Source of the DNA: a virus
Virus record (IMG/VR): IMGVR_UViG_3300023179_000233
Coordinates: 1-40,044 of that record
Reading direction: 5' to 3' (one strand)
DNA: 40,044 nucleotides
Part shown: positions 1-18,745 of the stretch, piece after piece
How positions within the stretch are numbered: position 1 is the stretch's first letter
Layout of the letters: every line of letters begins with the position of its first letter
Made by a program: the position numbers and the translations under genes
The notes under the pieces: generated by a model
The model's input: the letters and a program-made list of their open reading frames with translations, nothing else
What the model was told of the DNA's origin: nothing
The model's database searches: none

Positions 1-113
1 TCATCAAAGTCCATCAGTGGTGGGTGCGGAATATCGTCATGCACAATCACGCCGTCTACGGCTTCAATAAACTTTCCGCATATCACGCAGTAATATCCCT
101 CGGTTTCATCCAT
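1..113 (-). CDS. Small CxxC protein (partial, runs off left end)
   Basis: The start codon lies at 113 and overlaps the end of the upstream gene by 8 bases. Only 37 codons are inside the window and no stop is reached. The visible part has a Cys-Val-Ile-Cys pair at residues 9-12 followed by a V-I-V-H-D-D-I-P-H-P stretch. Small phage proteins with a CxxC knuckle followed by an 'IVHDxxPHP' segment recur in many phages and have no assigned function; a structural zinc site is possible. The tight overlap and same orientation place it in the left-arm operon. Too short for the second half of any metal site to be seen. Confidence 0.6.
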   Translation of the reverse strand, partial: MDETEGYYCVICGKFIEAVDGVIVHDDIPHPPLMDFD

Positions 114-567
114 GATTCTTCTCCTTTAGCTTGGCTTCAATGGCTCGGGCAAATCGGTACATTCTCCGATCTTCCTCGTACCCGTTCATATCGTGTATCT
201 CCTCATCCGTCAGTCCAACCCATTCACGTGTCTCTGCTTGCTCGATGGCTTGGCGTAGTTCGTCAATCTCTTCTTGCATCCTGTTACGAATCATCCGCTC
301 AGTCACAATGCCCTCGTGATCCGGGTGTTCTTCGCAGCGCTCTTGCCATGTTTTAATCGTGTGGGTTCGTGCTTGCGCTTCGTCCCAAGATTCTCTAAGC
401 CAAGCCATCCATTCATCTCTTGTCATTGGTTTGTTTTTTGGCGGTTCCCAACTCTCACACTCACAAACATATCGTCCTGCGCTATGTGATGCGTCACGCA
501 TGAAGCCATGCGGTGCGTCGGGGTGCTCGTTACACCTTATGCTTGATCGTTCGTCTGTGTTTTCCAT
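106..567 (-). CDS. Hypothetical phage protein with C-terminal WVGLTDEEI-type motif
   Basis: A 153-residue acidic, soluble protein. The N-terminal half has several Cys and His (C12, H15, H20, C35, C37) that could bind metal. The middle (about residues 45-110) is charged and probably helical. The C-terminus has E-W-V-G-L-T-D-E-E-I followed by F-A-R-A-I-E-A-K-L-K-E-K, a module that terminates many otherwise unrelated phage hypothetical proteins. The start at 567 follows an AGAGGG ribosome site and overlaps the DUF3310 gene by 31 bases. Function unknown. Confidence 0.75.
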   Translation of the reverse strand: MENTDERSSIRCNEHPDAPHGFMRDASHSAGRYVCECESWEPPKNKPMTRDEWMAWLRESWDEAQARTHTIKTWQERCEEHPDHEGIVTERMIRNRMQEEIDELRQAIEQAETREWVGLTDEEIHDMNGYEEDRRMYRFARAIEAKLKEKNHG

Positions 568-860
568 ACATCACCCTCTTTAACCCGTTGTTCATGGACC
601 TTGACTTCTCTTTTGCCTACCAACCGCGCAATCTCGCGGTCGATATACCATCTTGCCTTTCTTAAATCTTCAATCTCTTTGCCTTTCAAAGAGGCTCTCC
701 AAAGATATTTAATAGCGTTACCTATACAGAATCCCATGTGCTCGGTAATCTGTATGCACTCCACGCCGCTAGGATGTGAAGTGTAATGTTTAGGATGATT
801 TACTGATTCGTTTGTAATTTCTTTTTGGTCTTTTGTCATTCTGTACGGGGGTAATGTCAT
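537..860 (-). CDS. DUF3310 family protein
   Basis: The protein contains V-N-H-P-K-H-Y near residue 20, then G-V-E-C-I-Q-I-T-E, G-N-A-I-K-Y-L-W-R, and L-R-K-A-R-W-Y-I. This ordered set is the signature of DUF3310, small phage proteins of unknown biochemical role often found near nucleotide-metabolism or replication genes. I chose the ATG at 860, not the in-frame GTG at 905, because it forms an ATGA overlap with the stop of the preceding gene and sits behind GGAGAGGG. Length is about 107 residues, normal for the family. Confidence 0.88.
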   Translation of the reverse strand: MTLPPYRMTKDQKEITNESVNHPKHYTSHPSGVECIQITEHMGFCIGNAIKYLWRASLKGKEIEDLRKARWYIDREIARLVGKREVKVHEQRVKEGDVWKTQTNDQA

Positions 861-1096
861 AGCCCTCTCCATCCTCTGATATCTTTTGTCCAGTGCCTTT
901 CCCACAAGTGCATAGTGCTCAATCGCGCACCGTAGTCCGTAAGTTCTGTTGTTGTGTATTTTTTTGCTTCGTGTTCTCTACCAGGACCGACCCACAAATG
1001 TCGGCTTGAATAATGTGGTAGGTACGGCACGCCACGAAGGTAGAACACAGGTTGCGGTACTGTGACCGCAATCTTGTTGAGGTTCATAATGCTCAT
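857..1096 (-). CDS. Small hypothetical protein
   Basis: A 79-residue protein with no recognised domain; it contains a Pro/Tyr-rich centre and a Trp-rich C-terminus. It is believed real because both ends are ATGA overlaps: its start at 1096 overlaps the stop of the upstream gene and its stop at 857 overlaps the DUF3310 start. A second ATG at 1087 is a possible alternative. Such four-base overlaps indicate translational coupling within one mRNA. Confidence 0.6.
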   Translation of the reverse strand: MSIMNLNKIAVTVPQPVFYLRGVPYLPHYSSRHLWVGPGREHEAKKYTTTELTDYGARLSTMHLWERHWTKDIRGWRGL

Positions 1097-1269
1097 TCCA
1101 CACCCCCACTAAGCCTGAACGCGATACGCGCTCTGTCGAGTTCTGCAATACGTTTGCGTTCCGCGATAACCTTTGGATCTTTCCAAGGGTAAGGCTGCTT
1201 GAGCAGCCTCCACTGACGCTTAAAAGTTTCAAGTACGTTAGTACTCTCGGACGTTGTTTTAATCTGCAT
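1093..1269 (-). CDS. Small hypothetical protein, charged helix
   Basis: A 58-residue protein. The frame is open further upstream, but the ATG at 1269 has a good AGGAG site and follows directly after the stop of the previous small gene, so it is preferred. The C-terminal half is a basic/acidic helix (A-E-R-K-R-I-A-E-L-D-R-A-R). The stop overlaps the next start as ATGA. No family recognised. Confidence 0.6.
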   Translation of the reverse strand: MQIKTTSESTNVLETFKRQWRLLKQPYPWKDPKVIAERKRIAELDRARIAFRLSGGVE

Positions 1270-1270
1270 C

Positions 1271-1447
1271 TTATTCTCCTGTTGGGTCGTCGGTGCGTTC
1301 TTTAAGCCATAAGATCGAGCATCGGATATGAAACAAAGCTTCCTCTGCTTGCTCTGTAGCCTTATGGTATTTACTCTCGTTAACAAGTTCGTACACTGCT
1401 TTGAGTGCCTTGTGTGCGTTATGTAAATGTTCGCTGATGTCTTTCAT
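1271..1447 (-). CDS. Small helical hypothetical protein
   Basis: A 58-residue frame read from the minus strand: it begins M-K-D-I-S-E-H-L-H-N-A and ends D-D-P-T-G-E. It is mostly charged amphipathic helix, with one Cys. Support comes from its ATGA overlap with the end of the winged-helix gene (ATG at 1447, upstream stop at 1444-1446) and from its own stop lying 1 base before the next start. No homologue recognised. Confidence 0.6.
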   Translation of the reverse strand: MKDISEHLHNAHKALKAVYELVNESKYHKATEQAEEALFHIRCSILWLKERTDDPTGE

Positions 1448-1863
1448 TCTGCGCGTCCCGCATGCAAGATGGCAGACAAACGCTTTTGCACATCTACAAG
1501 AGCCAAAAACCTAGGTCTTACTTGGCTCAATTCTTCTTCTACTTCCTTAAGTTGGTGCTGTGTTAGTGAAATAAGCCTGTCGTACGGGGTCAACGTATGC
1601 ACCGATGAACTTGATGCTTTATTTACAAACTCGTCTACAAGAGTGTCAAGAACAACTTTTTTACCAGGAGGCACTTGGGTTTCAGTAGTTGCAGCCGAGT
1701 AAAAAAACCCGTTTTTAACTACAGCGCCGGTCTCTATCAAGCGGTCAAGAACTTTATACATAGTACCGGGACGTAGCGATAACGTCTTAGCAATCTGTGC
1801 GGCCTTGAGCGGGCTGGAACGTAACATCTTAATAACTTTATCGTCATACTTAGGTTTACGCAT
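1444..1863 (-). CDS. Winged helix-turn-helix DNA-binding protein
   Basis: The N-terminal half reads as a winged-helix domain: a basic start, then K-A-A-Q-I-A-K-T-L (helix 2), R-P-G-T-M-Y-K-V-L-D-R-L-I-E-T-G-A-V-V (recognition helix and turn), and K-N-G-F-F-Y as the wing. The C-terminal part (about residues 85-139) is a probable coiled coil for dimerisation. ATG at 1863 is preferred over an in-frame GTG at 1890 because GGAAGGAG precedes it. It may regulate phage transcription, but its target is unknown; the family also includes architectural and replication proteins. Confidence 0.7.
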   Translation of the reverse strand: MRKPKYDDKVIKMLRSSPLKAAQIAKTLSLRPGTMYKVLDRLIETGAVVKNGFFYSAATTETQVPPGKKVVLDTLVDEFVNKASSSSVHTLTPYDRLISLTQHQLKEVEEELSQVRPRFLALVDVQKRLSAILHAGRAE

Positions 1864-1867
1864 GTGA

Positions 1868-2551
1868 TTAACTCCTTCCGTTATATTCACAATCGGTTAC
1901 AGGACAAAACTTCTTGCAGGTAAAGTTCTGCTTCGCGTTCCATGTATCTGAAGCAAAACACTGCTCTAATCGGTCGATCTCCGGCAACCACCGCATCCAG
2001 TACTCGTCCGACTTCTCTTGTGAGTAGTCGGCAGTCACTAGGTTTTGGGCTACCACGAAAACCAACCCTGCCTTGATGTGTGTGACGTAGGGGAAATGCT
2101 TGAACACCAACAACGACAAAAGTTCTAGCTGTTTGGTGTCGGCGTACTGAGGCTTGCCTGTTTTGTAGTCCACGATACGTGCTCTATCACCGTTGACTAC
2201 TAACAAATCAGCAATTCCTCGCACCCACACATCAGGGGCATTAAATTTACAAGGCTCAAAATATTTGGTTAGGCCCATCTCGTACTCACAGAAATGGGTT
2301 CCAGGTAATTGTTTTAGCGCGTCTAACTGCGGACGTATGAAGTCAAACTCAGGAGGCAAGTTGATATTCGATCCTACATAATCTTCAGCAGCTTTGTGTA
2401 CTGCACTACCGTAAAGCAAATGGTCTTGCGGTGGTTCGACAATATCTTTAGTGACACGTAACCTGTAGTACTTACGCGGGCACTGCTGAAATAGTGAAAT
2501 GCTGCTATAAGACCAAGTGTACTTAGCCGGTGTATTTGACTGTTGTTCCAT
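1868..2551 (-). CDS. PD-(D/E)XK nuclease, RecB/Cas4-like
   Basis: The sequence begins with S-Y-S-S-I-S-L-F-Q-Q-C-P-R-K-Y-Y, followed by G-S-A-V-H-K-A, then G-I-A-D-L-L and I-V-D-Y-K-T-G-K-P (the catalytic D and D-x-K) and K-Q-L-E-L-L (motif with conserved Gln). This order is typical of the PDDEXK_1 superfamily of RecB-like and Cas4-like exonucleases. One Cys near residue 24 and three C-terminal Cys (C-K-K-F-C-P-V-T-D-C) match the arrangement that holds a 4Fe-4S cluster in Cas4 and AddB. It probably trims DNA ends during phage replication or recombination. The start at 2551 follows GGAAAGAG; the gene overlaps the polymerase end. There is no cas1/cas2 or array nearby. Confidence 0.88.
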   Translation of the reverse strand: MEQQSNTPAKYTWSYSSISLFQQCPRKYYRLRVTKDIVEPPQDHLLYGSAVHKAAEDYVGSNINLPPEFDFIRPQLDALKQLPGTHFCEYEMGLTKYFEPCKFNAPDVWVRGIADLLVVNGDRARIVDYKTGKPQYADTKQLELLSLLVFKHFPYVTHIKAGLVFVVAQNLVTADYSQEKSDEYWMRWLPEIDRLEQCFASDTWNAKQNFTCKKFCPVTDCEYNGRS

Positions 2552-4394
2552 AACTCTTTCCATGTTTAACTTCGCAGTTCAAAGGAAGAGTCTTTGCCCA
2601 ATCAGGACGCCATCTCATGCACTCTTGCACATACGCGCATGCCTCTTCCCACTCAGCTTCCGGCGCAATGCAAGCGATGGCATCATGCACCGTCAGAACT
2701 ACCTCGTAGCGTTCAGCTACCTTTAACATTTGATGTGCGATAACACACCTAGCGAGTGCTTGACATACGTTCTCTACGACCTTACCACCGTAGATTTTTA
2801 CGTACCCGCGTTTAGTCATGTACCTGTACTGTACGCACTCCGAAACTGGTCTACCGAGAGTAGTAGCTCGTTCCACCGTAGCTTCCATGTCACGTTCAAT
2901 CTTGGGGTACTTAAGGGGCAGTCCACTTGGCATATCAAACCCAACGCCTGGAAGCAAGTTAATAGCTTGCGGCTGTCTTCCAAATGTTGTGGTCTTTAAT
3001 TCCTCAGATGACAATGCTTCTAAACATTTGTCGCCCTCTTCCCACAGTCTAGGTATATATGGATTGTATTCTCGGTATCTCTTAATAATGTATCGGGCTG
3101 TATGTAGGTTCATATCGACGCCGACCGAGTTCATATGCTTCATAAACTTTTCAGCCCCTAAACCATACCCGCATCCGAGCACTACGGTTTTTCCTATGAA
3201 CCTCATAGCGTCATCAACATGTTCAACGCCAATGTTATAAATGGTAGAAGCCATTATTTTGTATACGTCCTTACCCTCCTCAAACGCTCGAACTAAACTT
3301 GTATGGCCTGCCAACCAAGCAAGTATCCGAGCTTCAATCTGCGAAGAGTCGGAGTCGATTAGCACGTAACCGTCAGGGGCGCATATGGCTTGCTTAATCT
3401 TAGATTTGCGCGGCAGGTTCTGAAGATTCACCTTGTCGTCGCCACCCCACCTGCCAGTGTGCGCGGCATAGTACCGTAGTGGAACGGGGAGGCTACCACG
3501 AAGCGATATGTCAAGTAGCCTCTGCGTCCTTGTCTCTTCAAGCGTGGATTTTGTACCTAGCCTAGCAGCAACAGCGCACTGAACACGAGGATCAGGGTGT
3601 TCAGAAAGTGCTTTGAACCCTTCATCTGTCTTGGACATAGCGTAGGTAATCTTGCCTGTCGTTGGGCTTATCTTCATAGGCACATCGACATACCAACTCT
3701 CCAACAGTGCAGCAAACTTTACGTTGGACATTAGCACTTCTTTGGTCACGCCAGATTCTTCAAGTAGCGTTTCCTTCTGTGTTATGACTTCTTGCAGATG
3801 CTCGCGCAAGAACTTTGTATCTAGCACTAGCTTCGGCTTAGTAAACATTCTTAATGTTAGATCTATTAACTTAAGCTCACGCTTCTTAAAGTTGGCGTTG
3901 AATATTTCGTAAAGTTTATAGCAGATGTCAGTGTCGTTAGCGCAATATGATCCGTAAGCATTAAGGTCGTACCGAGAGAAATCCCTGCGGCGTTTGCCCA
4001 TAGCTAGGACTACCTCGTTGCCTTTCTGCCCTACGCCGTAGCGGTCAGCCAACTTAGACAGGCTGTTACCCGCTTCTGTGCCGTCTATGGCTCGCGCCAT
4101 GCACAGCGTATCAAGATACACAAACGGGTATATGTTATAGCGCCAAGCTAATATAGCTCCGTCAAACATCATATTGTGGGCTAAGGCGAACGAAGTGTCC
4201 CAAGGGAACTGCGACAACCACTTGGCGGTTTCTTCATGCGTACCACTGAACCACTGCGTCCTCTCATCATCAACCTTTACGCATACGCCGATAGTCTCAA
4301 AGCGCGGGTCTCGCACGTACTCCTCAGTCGTCATATTACTGAGAGAATATTCTTTATCGTAATACGATTCAAAATCAATCGTTAAGGTTGTCAT
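2523..4394 (-). CDS. Family A DNA polymerase with 3'-5' exonuclease domain
   Basis: A 623-residue replicative polymerase of the Pol I family without the 5' nuclease domain. The N-terminal proofreading domain has D7/E9 (I-D-F-E-S), the Exo II motif A-H-N-M-M-F-D-G near residue 73, and Exo III Y-C-A-N-D-T-D near 150. The polymerase domain has motif A D-S-S-Q-I-E-A-R (D349), the O-helix R398-x3-K402-x3-L406-G-C-G-Y410-G, and motif C V-H-D-A (H570, D571). The position equivalent to E. coli Phe762 is Leu, and the usual Glu after the motif C Asp is Ala. An AAGGAT site precedes the ATG, which overlaps the VRR-NUC gene by 20 bases. No helicase or primase is visible in the window. Confidence 0.96.
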   Translation of the reverse strand: MTTLTIDFESYYDKEYSLSNMTTEEYVRDPRFETIGVCVKVDDERTQWFSGTHEETAKWLSQFPWDTSFALAHNMMFDGAILAWRYNIYPFVYLDTLCMARAIDGTEAGNSLSKLADRYGVGQKGNEVVLAMGKRRRDFSRYDLNAYGSYCANDTDICYKLYEIFNANFKKRELKLIDLTLRMFTKPKLVLDTKFLREHLQEVITQKETLLEESGVTKEVLMSNVKFAALLESWYVDVPMKISPTTGKITYAMSKTDEGFKALSEHPDPRVQCAVAARLGTKSTLEETRTQRLLDISLRGSLPVPLRYYAAHTGRWGGDDKVNLQNLPRKSKIKQAICAPDGYVLIDSDSSQIEARILAWLAGHTSLVRAFEEGKDVYKIMASTIYNIGVEHVDDAMRFIGKTVVLGCGYGLGAEKFMKHMNSVGVDMNLHTARYIIKRYREYNPYIPRLWEEGDKCLEALSSEELKTTTFGRQPQAINLLPGVGFDMPSGLPLKYPKIERDMEATVERATTLGRPVSECVQYRYMTKRGYVKIYGGKVVENVCQALARCVIAHQMLKVAERYEVVLTVHDAIACIAPEAEWEEACAYVQECMRWRPDWAKTLPLNCEVKHGKSYGTTVKYTG

Positions 4395-4767
4395 TGATCG
4401 GCATCCTTATACGTTTAGGCAGTCTTCTGTCAGGAACGGTCATAGAAATTTCTACGGGTATGTACGTCGGGTCGAGGCTCGCTTGTTCTTCAAGCCACTT
4501 AACAAGCAAATCGTAGCCCACTACTTCATTGACGACAAAGGCTACCCCTTTGTGCTGTCGTATGGAATCAAGCTCTTCTTGTTGCAACGCGGTAGGTTTG
4601 TTGTCTGCCGCTTTAGTCTCAATGGCAAAAAACTTTCCGTTGACACAACCCACAAAATCGGGTACACCACTTCGCCCATAACCACCAGTGGCGGGCATAA
4701 AGAAGTATGCGTTATACCTAAATAACAGTCTCTTTATTTTTACTTTAACTTTCCCTTCAGGTGTCAT
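4375..4767 (-). CDS. VRR-NUC domain endonuclease
   Basis: A 130-residue protein matching the VRR-NUC fold of the PD-(D/E)XK superfamily: G-R-S-G-V-P-D-F (first catalytic Asp), then F-F-A-I-E-T-K-A (E-x-K), and Q-Q-E-E-L-D-S-I-R-Q-H-K-G-V-A-F-V-V-N. In phages these are stand-alone structure-specific or Holliday-junction-type nucleases. ATG at 4767 was chosen because GGAGAA lies just upstream and a promoter ends about 20 bases before it; an earlier in-frame start at 4830 would place the promoter inside the gene. First gene of the VRR-NUC, polymerase, PDDEXK operon. Confidence 0.9.
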   Translation of the reverse strand: MTPEGKVKVKIKRLLFRYNAYFFMPATGGYGRSGVPDFVGCVNGKFFAIETKAADNKPTALQQEELDSIRQHKGVAFVVNEVVGYDLLVKWLEEQASLDPTYIPVEISMTVPDRRLPKRIRMPINDNLND

Positions 4768-4789
4768 GCGTTTCTCCAAAAGTAGACTT

Positions 4790-4818
4790 AGTATAGTCCA
4801 TAGGTTTGGATAGTGCAA
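4790..4818 (-). promoter_or_regulatory. Sigma-70-type promoter for the replication operon
   Basis: On the minus strand TTGCAC is followed by exactly 17 bases and then TATACT. The predicted start of transcription is about 16 bases before the VRR-NUC ATG. The -10 box matches consensus at five of six positions; the -35 box keeps only TTG. It lies just downstream of a terminator. Confidence 0.65.
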
Positions 4819-4830
4819 GCCAAACCCCAT

Positions 4831-4870
4831 AAAAAAAGGGACAAACTGACGAGCGGTCAGAATGTCCCTT
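4831..4870 (-). terminator. Rho-independent terminator built from the 27-base palindromic element
   Basis: Read on the minus strand, an 8-base stem (AAGGGACA with TGTCCCTT), a symmetric TT/TT internal loop, a 5-base stem (CTGAC with GTCAG) and a 5-base loop are followed by a run of T. It ends the leftward unit that finishes with the gene at 4914-5798. Its core is one copy of the dispersed palindrome (4840-4866). Confidence 0.7.
4840..4866. repeat. 27-base palindromic element, copy 1
   Basis: GACAAACTGAC, spacer GAGCG, GTCAGAATGTC. Non-coding copy between the terminator-bearing gene end and the replication-operon promoter. Confidence 0.85.
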
Positions 4871-4913
4871 AAAGGGAAGCGCAGAGTTTACGTGATCTGC
4901 ACACGCAACCAAA

Positions 4914-5798
4914 CTAGGAGTCTGTGATTATATCACCTTTCACGATTATGTAAAGGTTTTCGTACCTATCATCCTGCCAACGGACACCGACATCGCGTAT
5001 AGGTTGTTTTGGTTCAACAAAAGAAAGCATGGTCATCTTCTCGATGTAAGGCGACGGTACTTCTTCCTTGCTTCGATAAGTCTCCGAAAGAACCACCACG
5101 TTTGGCTTATCGCTAACCTTGTCAATAAACACCATAGAACCATCTCGCATTTGCTGAACTACTACTACATTATGGTTCTCTACATGATTGCTTATACTTC
5201 TGACGATCTCAAAAGCAATGCAGTGTTCAGGCAGGTTATCTGATATGGGGAAGTCAGGCATATCTACTGACGTACCCGTACGCAATCCGACGATATAGCT
5301 GATAGCAGCAGCATGTGCCTTCTCTGTATCATCCAACTCTTGGCGCACGTTTCGTTGGACGTTGTATACCAAGTTGTGCATGTTATACATAGCATCTTGG
5401 TACATCTTCGACACTAGTTGGTCTACGGGTTCTGGCTTGAAGTACTCTAGTATCTTCTTGACAGCAACTTTAGCGTTAACCGTCTTAACAGAGTTTCGCG
5501 TGCCTCGCTTGTTGTTGATGTTGTTGGAGTAAATGGTATACACCCACTGCCTTCCCGCTCCACGATGGTCGATCTTGCCGTAATTTACGTAGCCAACTTT
5601 CTGAAACCCGTGGAACACGCTGACCTTATTGTAGTGGTCTACTCCCTCAACAAGCGTAACCTTGTCGCGGTCATCACGCACCACCTCAAACGTGAGTGCG
5701 GGCATCGCGTTGTACACAGTTAGCAAGAGAGATTTAAGCTCAGGGATAACCTCAAGTCTGGGCTTTTTCGAATCGTTGTTGATCGTAATCTTAAACAT
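4914..5798 (-). CDS. Hypothetical protein, 294 aa
   Basis: A soluble mixed alpha/beta protein with no family that I recognise. It starts M-F-K-I-T-I-N-N-D and contains a basic middle segment (R-G-A-G-R-Q-W-V-Y-T-I-Y then N-K-R-G-T-R-N) that could bind nucleic acid, though this is speculative. The ATG at 5798 has GGGAGAA at good spacing and lies 11 bases after the stop of the upstream gene, so it was preferred to the in-frame GTG at 5816. It is the last gene before the terminator at 4831-4870, in the same transcript as the MoxR/VWA genes. Confidence 0.75.
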   Translation of the reverse strand: MFKITINNDSKKPRLEVIPELKSLLLTVYNAMPALTFEVVRDDRDKVTLVEGVDHYNKVSVFHGFQKVGYVNYGKIDHRGAGRQWVYTIYSNNINNKRGTRNSVKTVNAKVAVKKILEYFKPEPVDQLVSKMYQDAMYNMHNLVYNVQRNVRQELDDTEKAHAAAISYIVGLRTGTSVDMPDFPISDNLPEHCIAFEIVRSISNHVENHNVVVVQQMRDGSMVFIDKVSDKPNVVVLSETYRSKEEVPSPYIEKMTMLSFVEPKQPIRDVGVRWQDDRYENLYIIVKGDIITDS

Positions 5799-5809
5799 GT
5801 TTGTTCTCC

Positions 5810-6679
5810 CTACCAATCAAAGCGTGAAAGGATGTCATCGACCTTGTTCTTGAGAGACTCCCGAACGGTGTCACTCTCTTTCACTGTCTTAGCATCAAGG
5901 TTGTATATCGACCGCTCAAGTTCTTTACGGGCGACCTCTAACTGAGGATCTCGCGTAATGTTTAACTTGTCGAGCACACCGACCAGATCAATTGCATTTG
6001 TTATTAGCGTACTGTGGAAGCCTTTAGCGTTGCCATCCTCGTCGTTACCGAGTCGGTCGGACATGTGCGACAAGCATGTATGCAGTCGGCCCCACACTTC
6101 ACGCATCGCGCCGTTGGTGCGCTCCTCGTAGTGTTTCTCATACATGGCGCATAGTTCACGATGTGCTTGCTGCCCGATGTCCACACGAAAGTCACCCGAT
6201 GTTGGCACTGGCGAAAAGGTATAGCGAAAGTCAAACTTCTTCATCACCTCCGCAAGCGGTGGGTAGTCGTCTCGGTTGAATAGCTTGCCGAGTGAAAACG
6301 CTGAGGCTGTTACCATATCATCGTAAGTAGCCTCAAAGTTATCGCGTAACCTCCGCCAGTTATCGTGATGCTCGTCGAGCCTAGACTTGAAGCCAGTCAT
6401 AAACATCTCAGAGGTCAACAGTCTTGGACCCTTGTCGGCCCAAGGAAGTGTCTGCTGGTTATACCAAAGACGGACGCGAGCAGAGTACTTGTTCCAAGCA
6501 TCGAGCGCGTTGGTTCCGGCAAGCAGATGCTTGTGGTAGTTACCCGCATTGATCTTGGTGTCGTTCTGCTGATCGACCTCTTGTGATACTTTCTTATCCA
6601 GCTTGCGAGCAGTCCAAGTTGATATGTTCAACTCGATGAGCATCGCGCTCGTTTCGATACCTACATGTACAGCGTTCAT
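5810..6679 (-). CDS. DUF3150-like protein of the MoxR/VWA cluster
   Basis: A 289-residue helical protein. Near the N-terminus it has L-N-I-S-T-W-T-A-R-K-L-D-K-K-V and A-G-N-Y-H-K-H-L-L, followed by Q-Q-T-L-P-W-A-D-K-G-P-R-L-L. From memory of the family, DUF3150 proteins share these features and sit beside a MoxR-type ATPase and a VWA protein in phages and integrated elements; the family name should be treated as likely, not certain. The AGGAGC site fixes the start at 6679. A role as partner or substrate of the ATPase/VWA pair is inferred from context only. Confidence 0.72.
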   Translation of the reverse strand: MNAVHVGIETSAMLIELNISTWTARKLDKKVSQEVDQQNDTKINAGNYHKHLLAGTNALDAWNKYSARVRLWYNQQTLPWADKGPRLLTSEMFMTGFKSRLDEHHDNWRRLRDNFEATYDDMVTASAFSLGKLFNRDDYPPLAEVMKKFDFRYTFSPVPTSGDFRVDIGQQAHRELCAMYEKHYEERTNGAMREVWGRLHTCLSHMSDRLGNDEDGNAKGFHSTLITNAIDLVGVLDKLNITRDPQLEVARKELERSIYNLDAKTVKESDTVRESLKNKVDDILSRFDW

Positions 6680-6697
6680 TGTATTGCTCCTAGTTTG

Positions 6698-6724
6698 GAC
6701 GTTCTGACTTAGTGTCAGTTTGTC
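6698..6724. repeat. 27-base palindromic element, copy 2
   Basis: GACGTTCTGAC, spacer TTAGT, GTCAGTTTGTC. It spans the stop codon of the ribbon-helix-helix gene: the TGA is part of the CTGAC arm on the minus strand. Confidence 0.85.
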
Positions 6725-6879
6725 TTGGTTTTAAGGTACTGCTTCAAAAGGAATTCGACCACCTGAGACATCGATGGTACGAACCCCAACTGGTCGGCAA
6801 GCTGAGACTGAAGATCCTCAACTTGCTGACCAACTTCTTTGGATAAACTCACGTTCATCCGATCTTGGGGTTTCTTCAT
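6715..6879 (-). CDS. Ribbon-helix-helix (CopG/Arc-like) DNA-binding protein
   Basis: A 54-residue protein with the layout of a minimal ribbon-helix-helix domain: a short strand R-M-N-V-S-L, helix A (K-E-V-G-Q-Q-V-E-D-L), a turn, and helix B (S-M-S-Q-V-V-E-F-L-L-K-Q-Y-L). Such dimers insert the beta ribbon into the major groove of palindromic operators. ATG at 6879 follows a TGGAG site; an in-frame GTG at 6909 is less likely. The gene's own stop codon lies within a copy of the 27-base palindrome, which makes the palindrome a candidate operator for it, unproven. Confidence 0.72.
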   Translation of the reverse strand: MKKPQDRMNVSLSKEVGQQVEDLQSQLADQLGFVPSMSQVVEFLLKQYLKTKTN

Positions 6880-6883
6880 GCCA

Positions 6884-8137
6884 TTACTCCACGTAAACGA
6901 CCGAACCAACTTTGGGTTGGAAGTGCTTGTTGCCGATCACGCACCAGAGCACAGGCGCACTCTCTGCCCAGGCTTCCACTTTGTGCTGAAAAAACACACC
7001 GTCCGTTAGCATGATGATTGCTTGTGGGCTGATCTGTTTCTCCTTAAGATACTTTGGTACACAATCAGGATCAGTGCCACCACCACCGGTCGGTATAGTG
7101 TTCGCCGCAAAGCTCTCCACTTCAGCACCCTTGTAGGTCTCGTGCTTGGCTACGTGCGTATCCCAATAGAGAACCTCCATGACTTCAGGGTTAAGCTCAT
7201 TACATATCGAGTTAACCTCGGAGACAAACTGAGTAAGTACTTCTCCAAAGATCGAACCCGATGTGTCGATGCCGTTAACAAAGCAGCGGGCTTTCTCACT
7301 AATCATCGTGGGCATGATGATATCCATACCGATGAACCGACGATTAGGCTTGCGCCATGTAGTCTGGTCTCGACCTAGCATCGATGACTTGAGGAACTCA
7401 CGAAGAGCAGTTCGCCAATCTACTTTGGGATGCAGAAGCTCATCGATACCGCGTGGAACATTACCTTTGAGTTTCCCTGCCAAGATAGCACCTTCACGAA
7501 GAGCGTGGTCGATGTCTCTGCTCAGCTCTTCTTTCTCTTTGGCATCCATCTGTTGAGCATTATCCCAATCGTGTTGGTCGTGCTGTTCGCCACTACCCCC
7601 GCGACGTTCTGACTGCTCGTCAGGTTGTCCCCTTGGACCTTTACCGTTGCCGTCGTTTGGACGCTTGCCTGTACCTTGACGTTTCTTGAGCAGGTCATAG
7701 ACTTGTTTAGTGTCCATGTTGCGGAACTCTTCGTCGTACAAGCCTATTCTGTTACCGTCCTTATCGACAGGGAACTCCACCACTGCGTTAATAGGATCGC
7801 AGTCCATGATTTGCAAGTTGATAACATAGTCCATTGCCACGTTAGCAAGCGGAGCGTTCTCGTCGGCAAGGTTCTTCCACGTTGTGAGGTGACGATAAGC
7901 CTTGTGCATCGCTTCGTGAATAATCACGAAGTTAATCTGCTTATCGTTAAGACGCTCCATGAACTCGCGCCCATACCATACGTTCTTACCGTCAGTCATG
8001 GCTGTGAGATAAGGATCATCCTTGACATGAACTTTGCCGATCATAAAGATGCCTGAGAACAGGCAGAAGTTCTTGTCCTTCATCAACTGGACATGGCAAC
8101 GCTCGATGCGTTGCTCTACAGTTAGCTTAGTTAGCAT
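6884..8137 (-). CDS. VWA-like metallopeptidase domain protein (DUF2201/CoxE-like)
   Basis: A 417-residue protein with two recognisable parts. The N-terminal part has a zincin-type H-E-A-M-H at residues 74-78 plus a second His nearby. The C-terminal part has a von Willebrand A fold with the metal-ion site D-T-S-G-S (291-295), G-G-T-D (Thr near 355) and L-T-D-G. Between them is a Gly/Gln/Asp/His-rich disordered linker (about 154-190) into which one copy of the 27-base palindrome falls. The partner ATPase is the next gene upstream, as is typical of MoxR-VWA chaperone systems. AGGAGAA marks the start at 8137. Confidence 0.88.
   Translation of the reverse strand: MLTKLTVEQRIERCHVQLMKDKNFCLFSGIFMIGKVHVKDDPYLTAMTDGKNVWYGREFMERLNDKQINFVIIHEAMHKAYRHLTTWKNLADENAPLANVAMDYVINLQIMDCDPINAVVEFPVDKDGNRIGLYDEEFRNMDTKQVYDLLKKRQGTGKRPNDGNGKGPRGQPDEQSERRGGSGEQHDQHDWDNAQQMDAKEKEELSRDIDHALREGAILAGKLKGNVPRGIDELLHPKVDWRTALREFLKSSMLGRDQTTWRKPNRRFIGMDIIMPTMISEKARCFVNGIDTSGSIFGEVLTQFVSEVNSICNELNPEVMEVLYWDTHVAKHETYKGAEVESFAANTIPTGGGGTDPDCVPKYLKEKQISPQAIIMLTDGVFFQHKVEAWAESAPVLWCVIGNKHFQPKVGSVVYVE
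7603..7629. repeat. 27-base palindromic element, copy 3 (inside a gene)
   Basis: GACGTTCTGAC, spacer TGCTC, GTCAGGTTGTC. It lies inside the linker-coding part of the VWA gene and is read there in a different frame (G-Q-P-D-E-Q-S-E-R-R) from the other coding copies. Confidence 0.8.
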
Positions 8138-8147
8138 TGCTATTCTC

Positions 8148-9209
8148 CTAGAATAAGTACTGGTTTTCGCGCATCCATGTAACGAATGCACCGCTTGTGA
8201 ACAGGATGTCGCGCTTATCCTTGTTCCTTGCCGCTGTGATACTGAACACCGATTGAAGCTCTTTCGGTGTGCGCTTCAGATACGTAAACCACTTGTTGAT
8301 GTTCCCCCTGTCGATCTTCTGCACCGCGCCGTAAGCCATGATGCACAGGGCCGCAGGGGATGTGGGGATCTTTGCCACTGCTGGGTCGTGCATGATCTCT
8401 TCCCACGAAGGTAGTGAGTCAGCGACCTCGACGTACGCAATCAAGTCGCGTCCTGCGTTGTCACCAATCGTGCCGCACAGCGCAGTGACTAGCGTCTCAC
8501 GGGTAAACGCACCACGTTTCTTGATGATGTGGCTGGCCTTCTCGCCGGAGCGCGGAGAGAAGTATGACCTTTGCGGATACTTGGGGTTGAAGATCAAGTG
8601 ATTCTCCGCCTGTGCAGGATCTTTGTACGATGCTAGGCAATGGGGATAAGCCCTGACCCACGCCAGAAGCTCAGGCGCAAAGTCATGCGTTGCACCGTAC
8701 TCGATGTACTGCTCTGCCGTCGGGTTAGCAACGGGGATGATTGTCATGCGGTTGATACTGTGCGACTTCATCAGATCACCAACCCCGTCGGTGCTGTTGT
8801 TACCCGCAGTTACTACGATAGTATCCTTATGCTGTTTGAACCCAGCAATCCGTCGCTCATGCAACAGCGGATGGAGCATGTTCTGCACAGCCTGTGACGA
8901 TGGCTTGGAGAACTCGTCGATGAAGATCACCAGTGGCTCACCAGTGTGGAAGCCCCAGTGTTGGTTGGGATAGAGCATGGTGGTCTGACTCTCGCGGTCA
9001 GGCATTGGTACGCCAAGATCACCGAGGTCGGTGGTGGGTGTGTCGATGTAGACCAAGCGAAACCCTGTACGCTTAGCGAGTCGGCTAGCCATTGCAGTCT
9101 TGCCAACCCCAGGCTGACCGACCAAATGCACAGCGTTGGTGGAACCGATAGCAAGAATAAGTTCTTCCGCTTCGGCTAGAGATACTTCGGCGTTAAGTCT
9201 GATTTCCAT
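8148..9209 (-). CDS. MoxR/CobS-type AAA+ ATPase
   Basis: A 353-residue AAA+ protein. Walker A is G-Q-P-G-V-G-K-T at residues 31-38, Walker B is I-F-I-D-E-F, sensor 1 is T-A-G-N-N, and N-R-M provides the arginine-finger region. MoxR-class ATPases act as hexameric chaperones with a VWA protein encoded next door, remodelling or inserting metal into a target. Here the VWA gene follows after 10 bases. The role in a phage is not established. Start at 9209 follows AGGAAAT. Confidence 0.9.
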   Translation of the reverse strand: MEIRLNAEVSLAEAEELILAIGSTNAVHLVGQPGVGKTAMASRLAKRTGFRLVYIDTPTTDLGDLGVPMPDRESQTTMLYPNQHWGFHTGEPLVIFIDEFSKPSSQAVQNMLHPLLHERRIAGFKQHKDTIVVTAGNNSTDGVGDLMKSHSINRMTIIPVANPTAEQYIEYGATHDFAPELLAWVRAYPHCLASYKDPAQAENHLIFNPKYPQRSYFSPRSGEKASHIIKKRGAFTRETLVTALCGTIGDNAGRDLIAYVEVADSLPSWEEIMHDPAVAKIPTSPAALCIMAYGAVQKIDRGNINKWFTYLKRTPKELQSVFSITAARNKDKRDILFTSGAFVTWMRENQYLF

Positions 9210-9235
9210 TGTGATTTCCTAGTTTGATAGTTTGG

Positions 9236-10195
9236 TTAGACATTCTGACTGGATGTCAGTTTGTCCTGCACTTCTTTGCTTCCGCAATACTTCACATAGA
9301 ACTCGTTGTTGTTGGTTGGGATATGTACCGTTGGATAAACCTCCTTCTTATAAAAAAGTAAGTGGGGATACTGGAACTTTAGTAGGGTACTAAACGTAGA
9401 TTTGATATCTGCGTACGAAAACATATCAAGGCGAGTAACGATGCAGAGATCAATGAACCTTTTGTATATAGCGGCGTGGTCGTTTTGCACCATAGCCGAA
9501 TCTAGCTCGGCAAAGAAAGCAGTGCGTGATGCCCTAGCTTGTTCTGCCCTAGACTGGATAGTCCAAGAGTTCAATGTCAGATAGCTCAGTTGGCGATCAG
9601 AATCCATACCGTAGAAGCTAGTGAACTTCTCGTGCGCTTCCCTATAATGCCACCTACCTTCATTGCCTAGTAGGAACAAGGCACTCTTGCAGTAGTCCAA
9701 GAACGATGCGTAGTTACTAAGCATGCGCTTCGTTTCTTTCACCCTAGCTCGGTACACAATCTTTGCCTTGGAGTCAACGAACTTTTCCTGTGCGAGGTCG
9801 TATGTGATGTAACCGTTGTCTTTGGGGATTGGATAGTTAACACCGTCCCGCCCACGTATGTGTATCACCCCGCGAACCTTACTCACGCTTGAGAAAAGAT
9901 TACTGCGACCAAACACCTCGTTTAAGAAGCATGACGTTAAGTTCGTATGATAACCACACGCATTGATGCGTATCTTGTTATCCGGTGTGAACACCACAAC
10001 AGCGTGGTCGAACAAAGACAGGATGATGCCGTTGATACCCTCTGAGATGATGCACTGTGTGTACCGACGGTTCTTGCCAAGCGGACGGCGACCTGCATCA
10101 CGACTGTTGCCTTTTAATGGCTTCACCTGATCGTGGTATCGCTTAGCGTCAAAGTAATTGATAAGGGTTGGAATACCCGCTGTTGCTAGTGCCAT
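9236..10195 (-). CDS. Hypothetical protein, 319 aa, with palindrome-encoded C-terminus
   Basis: No family recognised. The protein is soluble and mixed alpha/beta. The N-terminal third contains basic stretches (G-R-R-P-L-G-K-N-R-R) and then beta-rich sequence; the C-terminal half is helical with many aromatic residues. The last nine residues, D-K-L-T-S-S-Q-N-V, are encoded entirely by copy 4 of the 27-base palindrome, followed at once by the stop. The start at 10195 overlaps the preceding gene by 10 bases. It is probably co-transcribed with the MoxR gene. Confidence 0.75.
   Translation of the reverse strand: MALATAGIPTLINYFDAKRYHDQVKPLKGNSRDAGRRPLGKNRRYTQCIISEGINGIILSLFDHAVVVFTPDNKIRINACGYHTNLTSCFLNEVFGRSNLFSSVSKVRGVIHIRGRDGVNYPIPKDNGYITYDLAQEKFVDSKAKIVYRARVKETKRMLSNYASFLDYCKSALFLLGNEGRWHYREAHEKFTSFYGMDSDRQLSYLTLNSWTIQSRAEQARASRTAFFAELDSAMVQNDHAAIYKRFIDLCIVTRLDMFSYADIKSTFSTLLKFQYPHLLFYKKEVYPTVHIPTNNNEFYVKYCGSKEVQDKLTSSQNV
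9239..9265. repeat. 27-base palindromic element, copy 4 (C-terminal codons)
   Basis: GACATTCTGAC, spacer TGGAT, GTCAGTTTGTC. On the minus strand it encodes D-K-L-T-S-S-Q-N-V just before the stop of the 319-aa gene. Confidence 0.85.
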
Positions 10196-10443
10196 GTTAG
10201 TAGTCCTTTTGGTATGGATACGTTGTTAGTGTGTGGGTCTACGCAGTGTCCGAACGTGCTGTTGATCTCGTTAGCGACATTCTGACGGTGTGTCAGAATG
10301 TCTCGGTAGGCAGTGGTGACCACCATGATCTGCTCGATGGAAACGTCAGGATGCGCGAGCACGTTGAGCATCTTGCGCTCAAACTCGCGGATTTGTGTAA
10401 GTATCTTGAGATACTGGGACATTGCTTGGGCTTTGGTAGTCAT
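10186..10443 (-). CDS. Small helical hypothetical protein containing a palindrome copy
   Basis: An 85-residue protein starting M-T-T-K-A-Q-A-M-S; largely helical with I-R-E-F-E-R-K-M-L and then I-M-V-V-T-T-A-Y-R. Copy 5 of the palindrome is read in frame as D-I-L-T-H-R-Q-N-V in the second half. ATG at 10443 forms an ATGA overlap with the stop of the 29-aa membrane peptide gene, so it is preferred over upstream in-frame starts that would read through that gene. No function recognised. Confidence 0.65.
   Translation of the reverse strand: MTTKAQAMSQYLKILTQIREFERKMLNVLAHPDVSIEQIMVVTTAYRDILTHRQNVANEINSTFGHCVDPHTNNVSIPKGLLTWH
10276..10302. repeat. 27-base palindromic element, copy 5 (inside a gene)
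   Basis: GACATTCTGAC, spacer GGTGT, GTCAGAATGTC: the only copy whose arms are fully complementary. It is coding, in the same frame as copies 4 and 6. Confidence 0.85.
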
Positions 10444-10529
10444 TTGATTAGCCCCAATCCAAGCAGAACAACAAGCGCGATGAAGCATGCCATCATGCCG
10501 TACGCGACCCAAACGTCTTTGTCATTCAT
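10440..10529 (-). CDS. 29-aa single-pass membrane peptide
   Basis: A very short frame, M-N-D-K-D-V-W then a hydrophobic span (M-M-A-C-F-I-A-L-V-V-L-L-G-L-G-L-I) ending in Lys: one transmembrane segment. It has a GAGGAAG ribosome site, its start overlaps the upstream stop as ATGA, and its stop overlaps the downstream start as ATGA. This double coupling is the main reason to believe it. Possible small membrane-acting early protein; function unknown. Confidence 0.6.
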   Translation of the reverse strand: MNDKDVWVAYGMMACFIALVVLLGLGLIK

Positions 10530-10789
10530 AATGTTTCTTCCTCATAGATGCCTACGTTGCCTTTGTACTTATCAAATGAAGGTTCCTTCTTACTACGGCA
10601 CATTAAGCATGAGCACGGACGCCCGTGCGTGGATGCCCATTTCCCTACGCGAGCACCATCGTCGGTTGGGAAGTCCCACTGCCGCAACTTATGCTTTGCA
10701 TCGGTTTTGGCACGTTTGTCCTCGTGCCGTGTGCGAGCACGCGAGGGATTCTTCATCCACTCAAAGATCACTGGGTTGCGCTTTTTCAT
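10526..10789 (-). CDS. Small basic protein with GRPCSC-xx-C motif
   Basis: An 87-residue basic protein. It has a clustered Cys motif G-R-P-C-S-C-L-M-C-R preceded by T-H, which resembles a widespread family of small bacterial and phage proteins carrying 'GRPCSCWMCxNPR'. The Cys cluster could bind zinc. It is ATGA-coupled to both neighbours and preceded by GGAGATCAAGGA. Function unknown. Confidence 0.72.
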   Translation of the reverse strand: MKKRNPVIFEWMKNPSRARTRHEDKRAKTDAKHKLRQWDFPTDDGARVGKWASTHGRPCSCLMCRSKKEPSFDKYKGNVGIYEEETL

Positions 10790-10965
10790 TCCTTGATCTC
10801 CTCGATTGATTCAACGTCCCAAGAGCTGTCGTCAATGTGCGTTGGTTGCGTGGCTAGGAACTCAAGCTCTTGCCATGCTTTGTCTTCTGCCTCATCTCTC
10901 GACTCAGCCTCGACGGTTACGATGATGTACGACGCCCTTCTGAACTCGACTTCAAACTTTTTCAT
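10786..10965 (-). CDS. Small DpnD/PcfM-like hypothetical protein
   Basis: A 59-residue frame, M-K-K-F-E-V-E-F-R-R-A-S-Y, with V-T-V-E-A-E-S-R-D-E-A-E-D-K-A and a C-terminal acidic tail. The pattern (beta strand, V-x-V-E-A-x-x-x-x-E-A helix) resembles short DpnD/PcfM-like and related phage proteins of unknown role; this is a resemblance only. Supported by GGGAGG before the start and by ATGA overlaps at both ends. Confidence 0.65.
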   Translation of the reverse strand: MKKFEVEFRRASYIIVTVEAESRDEAEDKAWQELEFLATQPTHIDDSSWDVESIEEIKE

Positions 10966-11243
10966 CGCGTTAATCCTCCCTTGTTGTTGATGCCGATAGC
11001 CGCTTCTCTAGCGTAGTCGGCAGTGAAGAACATCGCACCCTGCTTGTGTGGGGTAAGCACACACCAGGACTTGCGAGCGAGTACAGATGCTTTCTCGCCG
11101 CAGGGCTTGCATACGGTATGTCCGTAGGCAGCGCGTTTCTTGCCGATGCCGTTGATGCGGCAGATGCGGCAGTAGCCGTTGGTGTGGGCTGGTTTAGCAG
11201 GGACATTCTGACTCGGAGTCAGTTTGTCGTCGGTTTGAGACAT
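10962..11243 (-). CDS. Small zinc-finger-like protein, first gene of the left arm
   Basis: A 93-residue protein with C-R-I-C and C-K-P-C pairs about 20 residues apart, consistent with one zinc knuckle. Residues 6-14 (D-K-L-T-P-S-Q-N-V) come from copy 6 of the palindrome, right after the start. I chose ATG at 11243 because of a near-perfect AGGAGG site; the frame stays open to ATG 11351, so a longer form of about 129 residues is possible. It is the first gene after the strong leftward promoter. Confidence 0.68.
   Translation of the reverse strand: MSQTDDKLTPSQNVPAKPAHTNGYCRICRINGIGKKRAAYGHTVCKPCGEKASVLARKSWCVLTPHKQGAMFFTADYAREAAIGINNKGGLTR
11202..11228. repeat. 27-base palindromic element, copy 6 (N-terminal codons)
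   Basis: GACATTCTGAC, spacer TCGGA, GTCAGTTTGTC. On the minus strand it encodes D-K-L-T-P-S-Q-N-V at residues 6-14 of the zinc-finger-like protein. Confidence 0.85.
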
Positions 11244-11357
11244 GGAACCTCCTAGTAGGTTGTGGTAGGCACAGGCGTAGTTATCCCCACCCCTGCGTGC
11301 CTGGGAAGGGGCAGGTGGTACTGCGTTACTGAGTTGTTGCTGTGTATTCATCAATCG

Positions 11358-11369
11358 ACCTAAAGGTCA
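11358..11369. promoter_or_regulatory. Operator-like palindrome at the leftward transcription start
   Basis: GACCT-AA-AGGTC, immediately downstream of the -10 box of the leftward promoter, where a repressor would block transcription. Only one copy is seen, so this is a suggestion. Confidence 0.4.
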
Positions 11370-11398
11370 ATTGTAGCATATAAACTATACTTTGTCAA
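11370..11398 (-). promoter_or_regulatory. Consensus sigma-70 promoter for the leftward arm
   Basis: On the minus strand: TTGACA, 17 bases, TACAAT. The -35 is a perfect match and the -10 matches five of six. It faces the left-arm gene chain and probably drives early transcription using host RNA polymerase. Confidence 0.85.
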
Positions 11399-11473
11399 GT
11401 AAGTGTCAAAAGCTCTGGAGTTGTTGTATTGTGGTATTGCAATATGGAGATTTTAGAGCGGGGCGTTTGTTGT

Positions 11474-11742
11474 AATGTATGAGAAATGTATGTAATGTAG
11501 GAAAAGAGGTTGACAAACTTTTGCCCTGTTTTCAGGGGTTGTAGCAATGTAGATAATGTATTGATCTAGAAAAGGCTGTGGCTATTTTTGGGTCAACACC
11601 TGCTGCGTCTTCTCGAAAACTGCAAAATAAATTTCGGGAATGGCTTTTTTGGGCAAAACGCCCCTACAATATATACATTATTTGTTTTCAATGACTTAGC
11701 TCACATACAATCACCTTATACATTCAAATACAATCCTACATT
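11474..11742. repeat. AATGTA/TACATT motif cluster (iteron-like)
   Basis: Five AATGTA on the plus strand at 11474, 11485, 11494, 11546 and 11555, with close spacings of 11, 9 and 9 bases, and three TACATT at 11674, 11719 and 11737. The local repetition of one hexamer in an AT-rich gap resembles binding-site arrays at origins or regulated promoters. Confidence 0.5.
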
Positions 11743-11749
11743 GCGTTGC

Positions 11750-11776
11750 GACAAACTGACACTTTGTCAGAATGTC
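11750..11776. repeat. 27-base palindromic element, copy 7
   Basis: GACAAACTGAC, spacer ACTTT, GTCAGAATGTC. Non-coding, in the divergence region; its arms are identical to those of copy 1. Confidence 0.85.
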
Positions 11777-11809
11777 GTGAAATAGGGTGTTGACAAGTCT
11801 GTGGATATG

Positions 11810-11834
11810 CGTTAAGCTGCGTAGCAGCTTAACG
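11810..11834. repeat. 11-base-arm inverted repeat
   Basis: CGTTAAGCTGC, loop GTA, GCAGCTTAACG: a perfect palindrome with a 3-base loop and no T-run on either side, so not a terminator. A TTGACA at 11790 lies just upstream, but the matching -10 is poor. Likely operator or RNA hairpin. Confidence 0.6.
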
Positions 11835-11858
11835 GTTCAGCGCAAAAATAAGAGAACA

Positions 11859-11886
11859 AGGCTACCTCGTTGACATGACCGTTCCC
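11859..11886 (+). repeat. 28-base direct repeat, copy A (activator-site candidate)
   Basis: Contains CTACCTCGTTGACATGACCG. The same 28 bases recur exactly at 12614-12641. Copy A ends 57 bases before the TATACT -10 box of the first paralogue gene. The included TTGACA is not spaced correctly for any -10 box. Confidence 0.75.
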
Positions 11887-11940
11887 CCGAAAGTCTTTAG
11901 GAGATTTTGTCATTCTAAATCTGGTTTTGATACTAGCATA

Positions 11941-11949
11941 TGGTATACT
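11941..11949 (+). promoter_or_regulatory. Extended -10 promoter, first paralogue gene
   Basis: TGG-TATACT forms an extended -10 element with no good -35, about 54 bases before the ATG at 12003. Palindrome copy 8 begins just after it, over the expected transcription start. Confidence 0.6.
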
Positions 11950-11955
11950 AGTGGC

Positions 11956-11982
11956 GACGTTATGACCTAACGTCATTTTGTC
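11956..11982. repeat. 27-base palindromic element, copy 8 (degenerate, at promoter)
   Basis: GACGTTATGAC, spacer CTAAC, GTCATTTTGTC. It differs from the consensus in both arms but keeps the 11-5-11 layout. It covers the likely transcription start and leader of the 12003 gene, an operator-like position. Confidence 0.7.
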
Positions 11983-12002: not shown

Positions 12003-12572
12003 ATGACTACTCAATCAATCATGTTCAAAGCAGGTTCATTGTTCGCCGATAGTGAGACCAGTGCCGACGAAGCACTGGAGATCGCCGCTCGCCATCTTGG
12101 CGACAAGCCGACCTTCGAGCACTACAACGACAGCCGTGTGACCTTCGTTGATGCTTACGTCAGCCGCAAGCCGACTACTAAGGGCGACGCCGCCGATCAA
12201 GCATGGAAGCGATTCAAAGATCGCTTGGTGTTGCGTTATGCAATCGCAGTGCCACAAGCACCAAGTAAAGCCGCGACCAAAAAGCGAGCCGAGCGAACCG
12301 CAAAGCAAGACTCGCTGCTCAAGCAGTACGAAGCCGCGACTCCAGCGCAATTGACCGATATGCTTCGCAAGCAGTACGAACAGCAAGCGAAAGACCCTAG
12401 CCTTGATGATCGCAAAATCAACGAAATCAAGCAGGTTTTGAAGATCAAGACCAAAGACCAGAAAGCCGAACAAGACAAAGCACTCAAAGACTTGCGCGGC
12501 GAACTGAGCAAACTGGTCAAAGACTGTACCGACGCGGCGAAGATCAAAAAAGCGATCTCCCTGCTCAAGTAA
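12003..12572 (+). CDS. Coiled-coil hypothetical protein, paralogue 1
   Basis: A 189-residue highly charged protein. Residues about 20-75 contain a conserved block ending in A-W-K-R-F-K-D-R-L; the rest is a Lys/Ala/Gln/Glu-rich helix (K-K-R-A-E-R-T-A-K-Q) with predicted coiled coil and a C-terminal K-L-V-K-D-C-T. It aligns along its whole length with the protein at 12767, including the blocks P-T-F, K-P-x-T, A-W-x-x-F, K-Q-V-L-K-I and K-L-x-x-x-C. TAGGAAA precedes the ATG. It is followed by its own terminator, so it is a one-gene unit. Its strong, separate control suggests abundant product; function unknown. Confidence 0.8.
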   Translation: MTTQSIMFKAGSLFADSETSADEALEIAARHLGDKPTFEHYNDSRVTFVDAYVSRKPTTKGDAADQAWKRFKDRLVLRYAIAVPQAPSKAATKKRAERTAKQDSLLKQYEAATPAQLTDMLRKQYEQQAKDPSLDDRKINEIKQVLKIKTKDQKAEQDKALKDLRGELSKLVKDCTDAAKIKKAISLLK

Positions 12573-12706: not shown

Positions 12707-12766
12707 ATATGGACAATCTGAGATTGGCTCAGATTGTAGAACCCATAACTTTATAGGAGTTATCAC

Positions 12767-13423
12767 ATGGGTAAGAAACCAGTAGCAGCAGCAGCGCCGG
12801 TTCAACCAGCGCCGGTTATCAGTGCAGTGCAGGCCGATGCAGCTTTTGCAGCCGGTGCAGGTGAAGCTCGCACTAGCTTAGCTAGAATCGAGACGGCCGA
12901 GAATTTCGCTCGGGCCTTGGGTACTAATCCAACCTTCCAGGCCTGGGAAGCAATGCGCCTGAAATGGACTGAAGGGTATCACTCAGTGAAACCCGACACT
13001 TCGAGCAATGCAGGCGACAAGGCCTGGGCTAGCTTTGCCAAGTACATGGGCGAGCTTTACGGGATTGAAAAGCCCAAGAGTACTAGCGCAGCAGCAGAGA
13101 AAAAAGCTGCAGAGCGGGAAGCTGCAAAAGGTAAGCTCGAAGAAAAGTATGAGGGCCAAGATCTAGCTCAAATCATGCAACAGATTGAAGCTCAGTACAC
13201 AAAGCTAGCTAAGAAGCCCAGTGATAAGCATACCGAGAAAACCCTGAAAGAGCTTAAGCAAATCGCCCGAATTCGGGAAGCTGAGGAGAAGGAGGAGCTT
13301 GCGGACGAAATCAAGGGATTGAAGGAGGATATCCGTAAGCTGATAACAAGCTGCAAGAACGTGGAATTGTTGCGTGAAGTACATGACACACTATCAACCG
13401 AGGAGAATGATGATGAAATCTAA
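12767..13423 (+). CDS. Coiled-coil hypothetical protein, paralogue 2
   Basis: A 218-residue protein homologous to the 12003 product. It adds an Ala/Pro-rich N-terminal extension (about 40 residues), then the shared block L-G-T-N-P-T-F, K-P-D-T-S, A-W-A-S-F, a Lys/Glu/Ala coiled coil, L-K-E-L-K-Q-I-A and a C-terminal K-L-I-T-S-C-K-N. It ends in an acidic tail. AGGAG precedes the ATG. Codon choice is more GCA- and AGCT-rich than in paralogue 1, so the two have diverged well beyond a recent copy. Function unknown; the layout suggests a self-associating or nucleic-acid-associated protein, without proof. Confidence 0.8.
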   Translation: MGKKPVAAAAPVQPAPVISAVQADAAFAAGAGEARTSLARIETAENFARALGTNPTFQAWEAMRLKWTEGYHSVKPDTSSNAGDKAWASFAKYMGELYGIEKPKSTSAAAEKKAAEREAAKGKLEEKYEGQDLAQIMQQIEAQYTKLAKKPSDKHTEKTLKELKQIARIREAEEKEELADEIKGLKEDIRKLITSCKNVELLREVHDTLSTEENDDEI

Positions 13424-18554: not shown

Positions 18555-18745
18555 ATTCTCAAGTTTTAGAGTATTTGATTAAGCGTTGCCATGACGAAGA
18601 AAGCCATTTGGCCGAAACTTTAGGGCAAGGTTTAGCAAAGGACCACGCTGATTATCGCCATCAGTGCGGGATTATTAGAGGTTTGGCAATGGCGAGACAA
18701 ATGCTAATTGATGTAGCAGAAAGGATGGAAAACGACGATGAGTGA
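18551..18745 (+). CDS. Small helical hypothetical protein
   Basis: A 64-residue helical protein starting M-N-S-Q-V-L-E-Y-L. Starts in an ATGA overlap with the portal stop and overlaps the co-chaperonin start by 8 bases, so it is translationally coupled within the head operon. Function unknown. Confidence 0.78.
   Translation: MNSQVLEYLIKRCHDEESHLAETLGQGLAKDHADYRHQCGIIRGLAMARQMLIDVAERMENDDE

Follow-up and report, generated by a model that had tools for sequence, protein, structure and literature searches.

What are the 27-base palindromes scattered along one arm of this viral genome, and what, if anything, reads them? An initial annotation of the window, which is a whole IMG/VR virus record of 40,044 bp, had reported eight such sites. 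Scanning with the pattern GACAAACTGAC-N5-GTCAGAATGTC and allowing up to three mismatches, we recovered precisely these eight, where 100 dinucleotide shuffles gave an expectation of 0. The reported anatomy was also correct: the 11-5-11 layout is invariant in the window's sites, all spacers differ, and most copies carry a non-complementary AA/AA step in their arms. The copy at 10276 is a perfect palindrome, while that at 11956 is degenerate, with three mismatches. A relaxed two-fold pattern revealed a ninth, weaker copy at 12712-12738 (GACAATCTGAG attgg CTCAGATTGTA), orthologous to sites in the related loci L043 and L044. The claim that no copy lies in 1-4800 or in 12-40 kb therefore holds for full sites and fails for this weak one, and the range of the palindrome is corrected to about 4.8-12.75 kb. 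Only isolated half-sites with one mismatch (e.g. at 27139) occur in the remainder of the window; a similar frequency in shuffled sequence or a spread across the right arm, named as what would refute the element, was not seen. Within their range the copies are spaced regularly, about 1 kb apart over some 8 kb. An exact search with the pattern returned 32 stretches in viral contigs and three matches in bacterial and archaeal genomes totalling 257 Gb, about chance level by our own rough estimate, on which ground we rejected a bacterial origin of the palindrome.

The copies lie in and around the leftward replication arm, which encodes DNA polymerase A, an exonuclease, a MoxR-type AAA protein and a DUF2201/VWA protein; the rightward structural arm encodes terminase, portal and major head protein. 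Copy 1 (4840..4866, + strand) is the leftward operon's final site and sits within an intrinsic terminator, in leftward reading GGGACATTCTGAC-N5-GTCAGTTTGTCCC-TTTTTTT. Copy 2 (6698..6724, -) lies between the ribbon-helix-helix (RHH) gene and the gene at 5810-6679, with the RHH stop codon falling inside it. Four copies occupy coding sequence: copy 3 (7603..7629, -) in a hypervariable linker of the DUF2201/VWA gene, copy 4 (9239..9265, -) as the nine C-terminal codons (DKLTSSQNV-stop) of ORF 9236-10195, the perfect copy 5 (10276..10302, no strand assigned) within ORF 10186-10443 (DILTHRQNV), and copy 6 (11202..11228, -) as codons 6-14 of the first leftward ORF (10962-11243). Copy 7 (11750..11776, +) is intergenic, about 350 bp upstream of a predicted leftward early promoter (11370..11398, -; TTGACA-17-TACAAT, 11/12). 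The last two appear to be degenerate operators: copy 8 (11956..11982, -) lies just downstream of a TATACT -10 box and 47 bp upstream of the start codon at 12003, and copy 9 (12712..12738, +) lies downstream of another TATACT, 55 bp upstream of the start codon at 12767.

The scan of related phages that the initial annotation had suggested gave a clear answer. Of 80 IMG/VR loci fetched with the VWA protein, some 50 have 4-11 copies each, restricted to a replication arm of about 9 kb, and a reversed control pattern had no match in these loci. A scan of one whole 70.5-kb record (G004) found nine copies, all within the roughly 9 kb covered by its locus L045. Most of the phages that lack the window's motif have a dispersed palindrome of their own with a comparable layout, namely GACAwwCTTAC in L058/L069, GACAwTCCTAG or AACAwwTCCGC-like motifs in the clade L077-L094, and further private motifs in more distant loci, with shuffles yielding one or two members for the best-supported sets. 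In L101, L103, L109 and some other distant loci no palindrome set rose above shuffles. The nearest cultured phages, picked by terminase, were searched over their first 30 kb: DSL-LC04, 023Pt_psg01 and HTVC027P have no comparable palindrome family, and HTVC023P has one AT-rich poly-A match and otherwise none. A literature search for dispersed palindromes in lytic phages gave no match.

Is the palindrome read as DNA, or does it act as a hairpin in RNA? Across 209 non-redundant sites, positions 5 and 6 pair at frequencies of 0.36 and 0.30, where independent halves predict 0.39 and 0.30; there is no excess of G-U pairs, and the AA/TT step occurs in its two orientations 13 and 14 times, showing no orientation bias. 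Positions 7 and 11 are more symmetric than this, as would suit a dimer with preferences that vary from phage to phage. The operon's final site behaves differently. In 32 of 45 related loci a T-run comes after it, forming an intrinsic terminator, and its outer flanking positions pair in 86% and 71% of cases and positions 5-6 in 62%, whereas at other sites positions 5-6 pair in 31% and 27% and the outer flanks in 36% and 22%, near chance. Because the halves vary independently everywhere outside this last site, we regard the palindromes as two-fold DNA-binding sites; the earlier preference for protein binding over simple hairpin formation stands for the sites generally, and at the operon's end the site serves in addition as an intrinsic terminator. 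It is very improbable that the whole set works as RNA hairpins in the operon transcript, for processing, translation control or termination. That most sites lie in transcribed sequence and that the terminator has paired flanks would suit such a role, but a covarying stem is absent except at the terminal site, two sites abut -10 boxes, and the palindrome has no match in Rfam. Less credible still, and in our view with next to no chance of being right, is a mobile selfish palindrome. Copies set in frame within ORFs are what such an element might leave. However, when orthologous genes were compared with their flanks, 575 of 577 pairs retained the site and the other two differed in having a 6-bp spacer, so that no empty site was seen, the palindrome is not mobile and the selfish element that the initial annotation had entertained is contradicted; motifs change in place instead. 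A site within a CCGCCG repeat tract has a spacer of 6 bp in L010 and of 5 bp in L022 and L028.

The copy within the VWA gene gives a closer view of this conservation. It keeps the same frame in the orthologues that carry it, while the surrounding linker differs in both length and sequence. The Asp codon in the site reads GAC in all 30 cases (51% elsewhere in these genes) and the Ser codon reads TCA, likewise in all 30 (19% elsewhere), figures that overstate independence, since similarity to the motif was the criterion for picking the sites and the phages are relatives of one another. Such apparent synonymous constraint within a gene supports the reading of the site as an operator. The VWA protein (6884-9209) stands beside the MoxR-type AAA ATPase in the phage replication operon, and its homologues are present in many large phages.

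As candidate binder we propose the family formed by two paralogues at 12003..12572 (+; 189 aa, Lys-rich) and 12767..13423 (+; 218 aa). The family is present once or twice in nearly all loci that have sites and cover the region. Upstream of most family genes a palindrome begins about 44-70 bp before the ATG, often beside a TATAAT-like box; with up to one mismatch, TATAAT occurs on the gene side of 13 of 20 promoter operators in clade A, compared with 17 matches at 173 other sites, both sides counted. A minority of family genes have a poor upstream palindrome with at least five mismatches. In the clade L077-L087 the gene is single and inverted, and here too the clade's own palindrome type stands upstream of its start. 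We weighed a heterodimer of the two paralogues as an explanation for the AA/TT asymmetry and set it aside as unnecessary, because clade B is equally asymmetric with a single gene copy. The protein models are all-helical (pLDDT 93 for the second paralogue, and 85). They found nothing below E 0.001 in a PDB and viral fold search, the family has no significant match in Pfam or PHROG, the 12767-13423 protein has no tblastn match in 50,697 phage records, and single-protein searches with the family gained few extra loci. The binder is likely to be a new all-helical protein family, to judge from gene context and comparison. The two proteins first suggested as binders, a winged-helix protein (1444-1890) and the RHH protein (6715-6888), fare poorly, both being undetectable in most site-bearing phages, although the RHH protein has 57 aa and divergence could hide its homologues. 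The distant relatives L115, L116, L118, L121, L096, L097 and L107 have other private dispersed palindromes (e.g. AAAgTTATA-4) and lack a clear homologue of the family.

Motif and family protein switch together between close relatives. L087 shares 96-97% DNA identity with L085/L086 over most of the arm, and the sole long protein replaced between them is the family protein (33-38% identity); at orthologous sites the cores change between CCGC and CCTAG within flanks that are 91-99% identical. Both flanks could be aligned at three orthologous positions (7067/7232 and 10022/10187 in L085 and L087; 10496/4515 in L086 and L092), only a few L085/L086-L087 sites being comparable. In the aligned cores eight of ten inner positions differ and two are shared, whereas the flanks are 91-100% identical, their differences clustering in the first 10 bp adjoining the site. 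Among 82 ORF sets in the clade, the family protein is the only one whose identities divide the motif types with no overlap, with a within-type minimum of 52% identity and between-type values of 30-37%; for the runner-up, a 71-aa ORF that itself contains a site, the ranges overlap. Two loci are mixed. L082 has a CCTAG-type gene with its own operator, yet five dispersed sites of CCGC type, and L092 carries both motif types in one contig; these may be recombinants caught mid-switch or chimeric assemblies.

Building on what was computed (the sites and their confinement, two-fold DNA-type recognition, placement at promoters, conservation in place and co-switching), we propose, with a probability of roughly 0.6, that the palindromes serve as operators for the phage-encoded family protein, forming an autoregulated network, in an apparently lytic phage, that would resemble the stoperators of cluster A mycobacteriophages. 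The suggestion of an operator for a phage protein had been made in the initial annotation, and half-site independence, synonymous constraint, the promoter operators and co-switching with one protein support it. We infer that the family protein binds the sites and dimerises: each subunit of the dimer, which might also pair the two paralogues, would recognise one 11-bp half-site, and the 5-bp spacer would go unread. At the family's own promoters the operator, which covers the start site or lies immediately beyond it, beside the -10 box, would provide negative feedback. The other copies, in genes, at gene junctions and in the operon terminator, lie along the leftward operon away from its main promoter, and protein bound there would most likely block RNA polymerase as a roadblock or aid termination. 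As the protein accumulates, it would then switch off the early and replication genes, much as happens with mycobacteriophage stoperators. On sequence grounds, comparison gives good support to binding by the family protein; the case for a simple roadblock is weaker, because the sites, unlike stoperators, show no orientation bias. Counting against the proposal are the lack of a recognised DNA-binding fold in the family model, the absence of a palindrome from the predicted leftward promoter, the few family genes with a poor upstream palindrome and the mixture of motif types in L082 and L092.

The main rival of roadblock action is DNA architecture, in which the same protein and sites would serve to organise DNA, the dispersed copies bridging the arm, compacting it or tagging it to be replicated or packaged. 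The even spacing of about 1 kb and the presence of sites within genes, free of orientation bias, speak for it, as may the long C-terminal helices of the model, which could bridge sites; we judge it unlikely, however, given operators at the binder's own promoters and a terminal site fused to an intrinsic terminator, both of which point to transcription. Rather more doubtful is a different binder, from phage or host, with the 12003/12767 family as merely one regulated gene. The missing fold match leaves room for this, and small ORFs in variable segments of the L085-L087 pair partly remain as candidates, but the other conserved proteins among the 82 ORF sets fail to track motif type, the poor detectability of the RHH and winged-helix proteins counts against them too, and a host protein would leave different motifs in near-identical phages unexplained.

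Among known systems the nearest is the stoperator network of cluster A mycobacteriophages such as L5 and Bxb1, in which many sites are dispersed per genome, some in promoters and most in transcribed regions; stoperators are asymmetric 13-mers read by a monomer, and their motif differs by subcluster along with the repressor (PMC6550527, PMC9283540). The window phage and its relatives likewise have many dispersed sites, most of them away from promoters, and a motif that varies with the proposed binder between related phages. They differ in that the sites are palindromic 11-5-11 elements free of orientation bias and confined to one arm, the protein is all-helical and unrelated to the HTH immunity-repressor family (no Pfam, PHROG or fold match), integrase and ParA were not found in the related records searched, and the motif switches between phages that are 96-97% identical. 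The centromere sites of phage N15 are inverted repeats scattered in early regions of the phage genome and so resemble ours in dispersal, but here a matching partner protein is lacking and copies fall within coding sequences and a terminator. Operators of the lambda CI/Cro type are two-fold and overlap the regulator's own promoter, as the proposed ones do; here some ten copies extend over 8 kb, most off promoters, with no helix-turn-helix match. Rickettsia palindromic elements are palindromes tolerated in frame within ORFs, a position shared by several copies here, which differ in being 27 bp long, not mobile and fixed at orthologous positions.

Searches of related records for integrase/resolvase (PF00589, PF00239; 0/18) and ParA (PF13614; 0/13, control positive 14/14) were negative, and a lytic lifestyle is likely, although the records may be incomplete. 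The partition site offered by the initial annotation is not borne out, ParA being absent from the 13 records searched, and the layout, with copies about 1 kb apart over some 8 kb and within genes, is against an origin site. An AT-rich intergenic stretch at 11380-11745, with repeated AATGTA-like words between divergent gene blocks, is a possible replication origin.

More tentatively, and at somewhat less than even odds, a new DNA-binding fold may run an operator network throughout the genomes of lytic aquatic phages, with diversifying selection driving replacement of the regulator and then rapid rewriting of its sites in place; such selection could perhaps be escape from the regulator of a co-infecting relative. 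Near-identical phages that differ in both regulator and motif offer a natural experiment in which to follow a change of specificity in a transcription factor and its scattered sites, and L082 and L092 may represent intermediate states of switching. The system suggests that stoperator-like control extends beyond temperate mycobacteriophages, and gives a testable function to a family for which Pfam, PHROGs and 50,697 phage records contain no significant match.

Two further features lie in the structural arm and at the record's right end. A GroES-like co-chaperonin gene (18738-19139) lies downstream of the portal gene, as in related pelagiphages. A 12-bp tandem repeat array with the unit TACAGGTA occupies 39909-40044, near the right end, and two more units of this type are found at 38439-38460, about 1.5 kb from the array.
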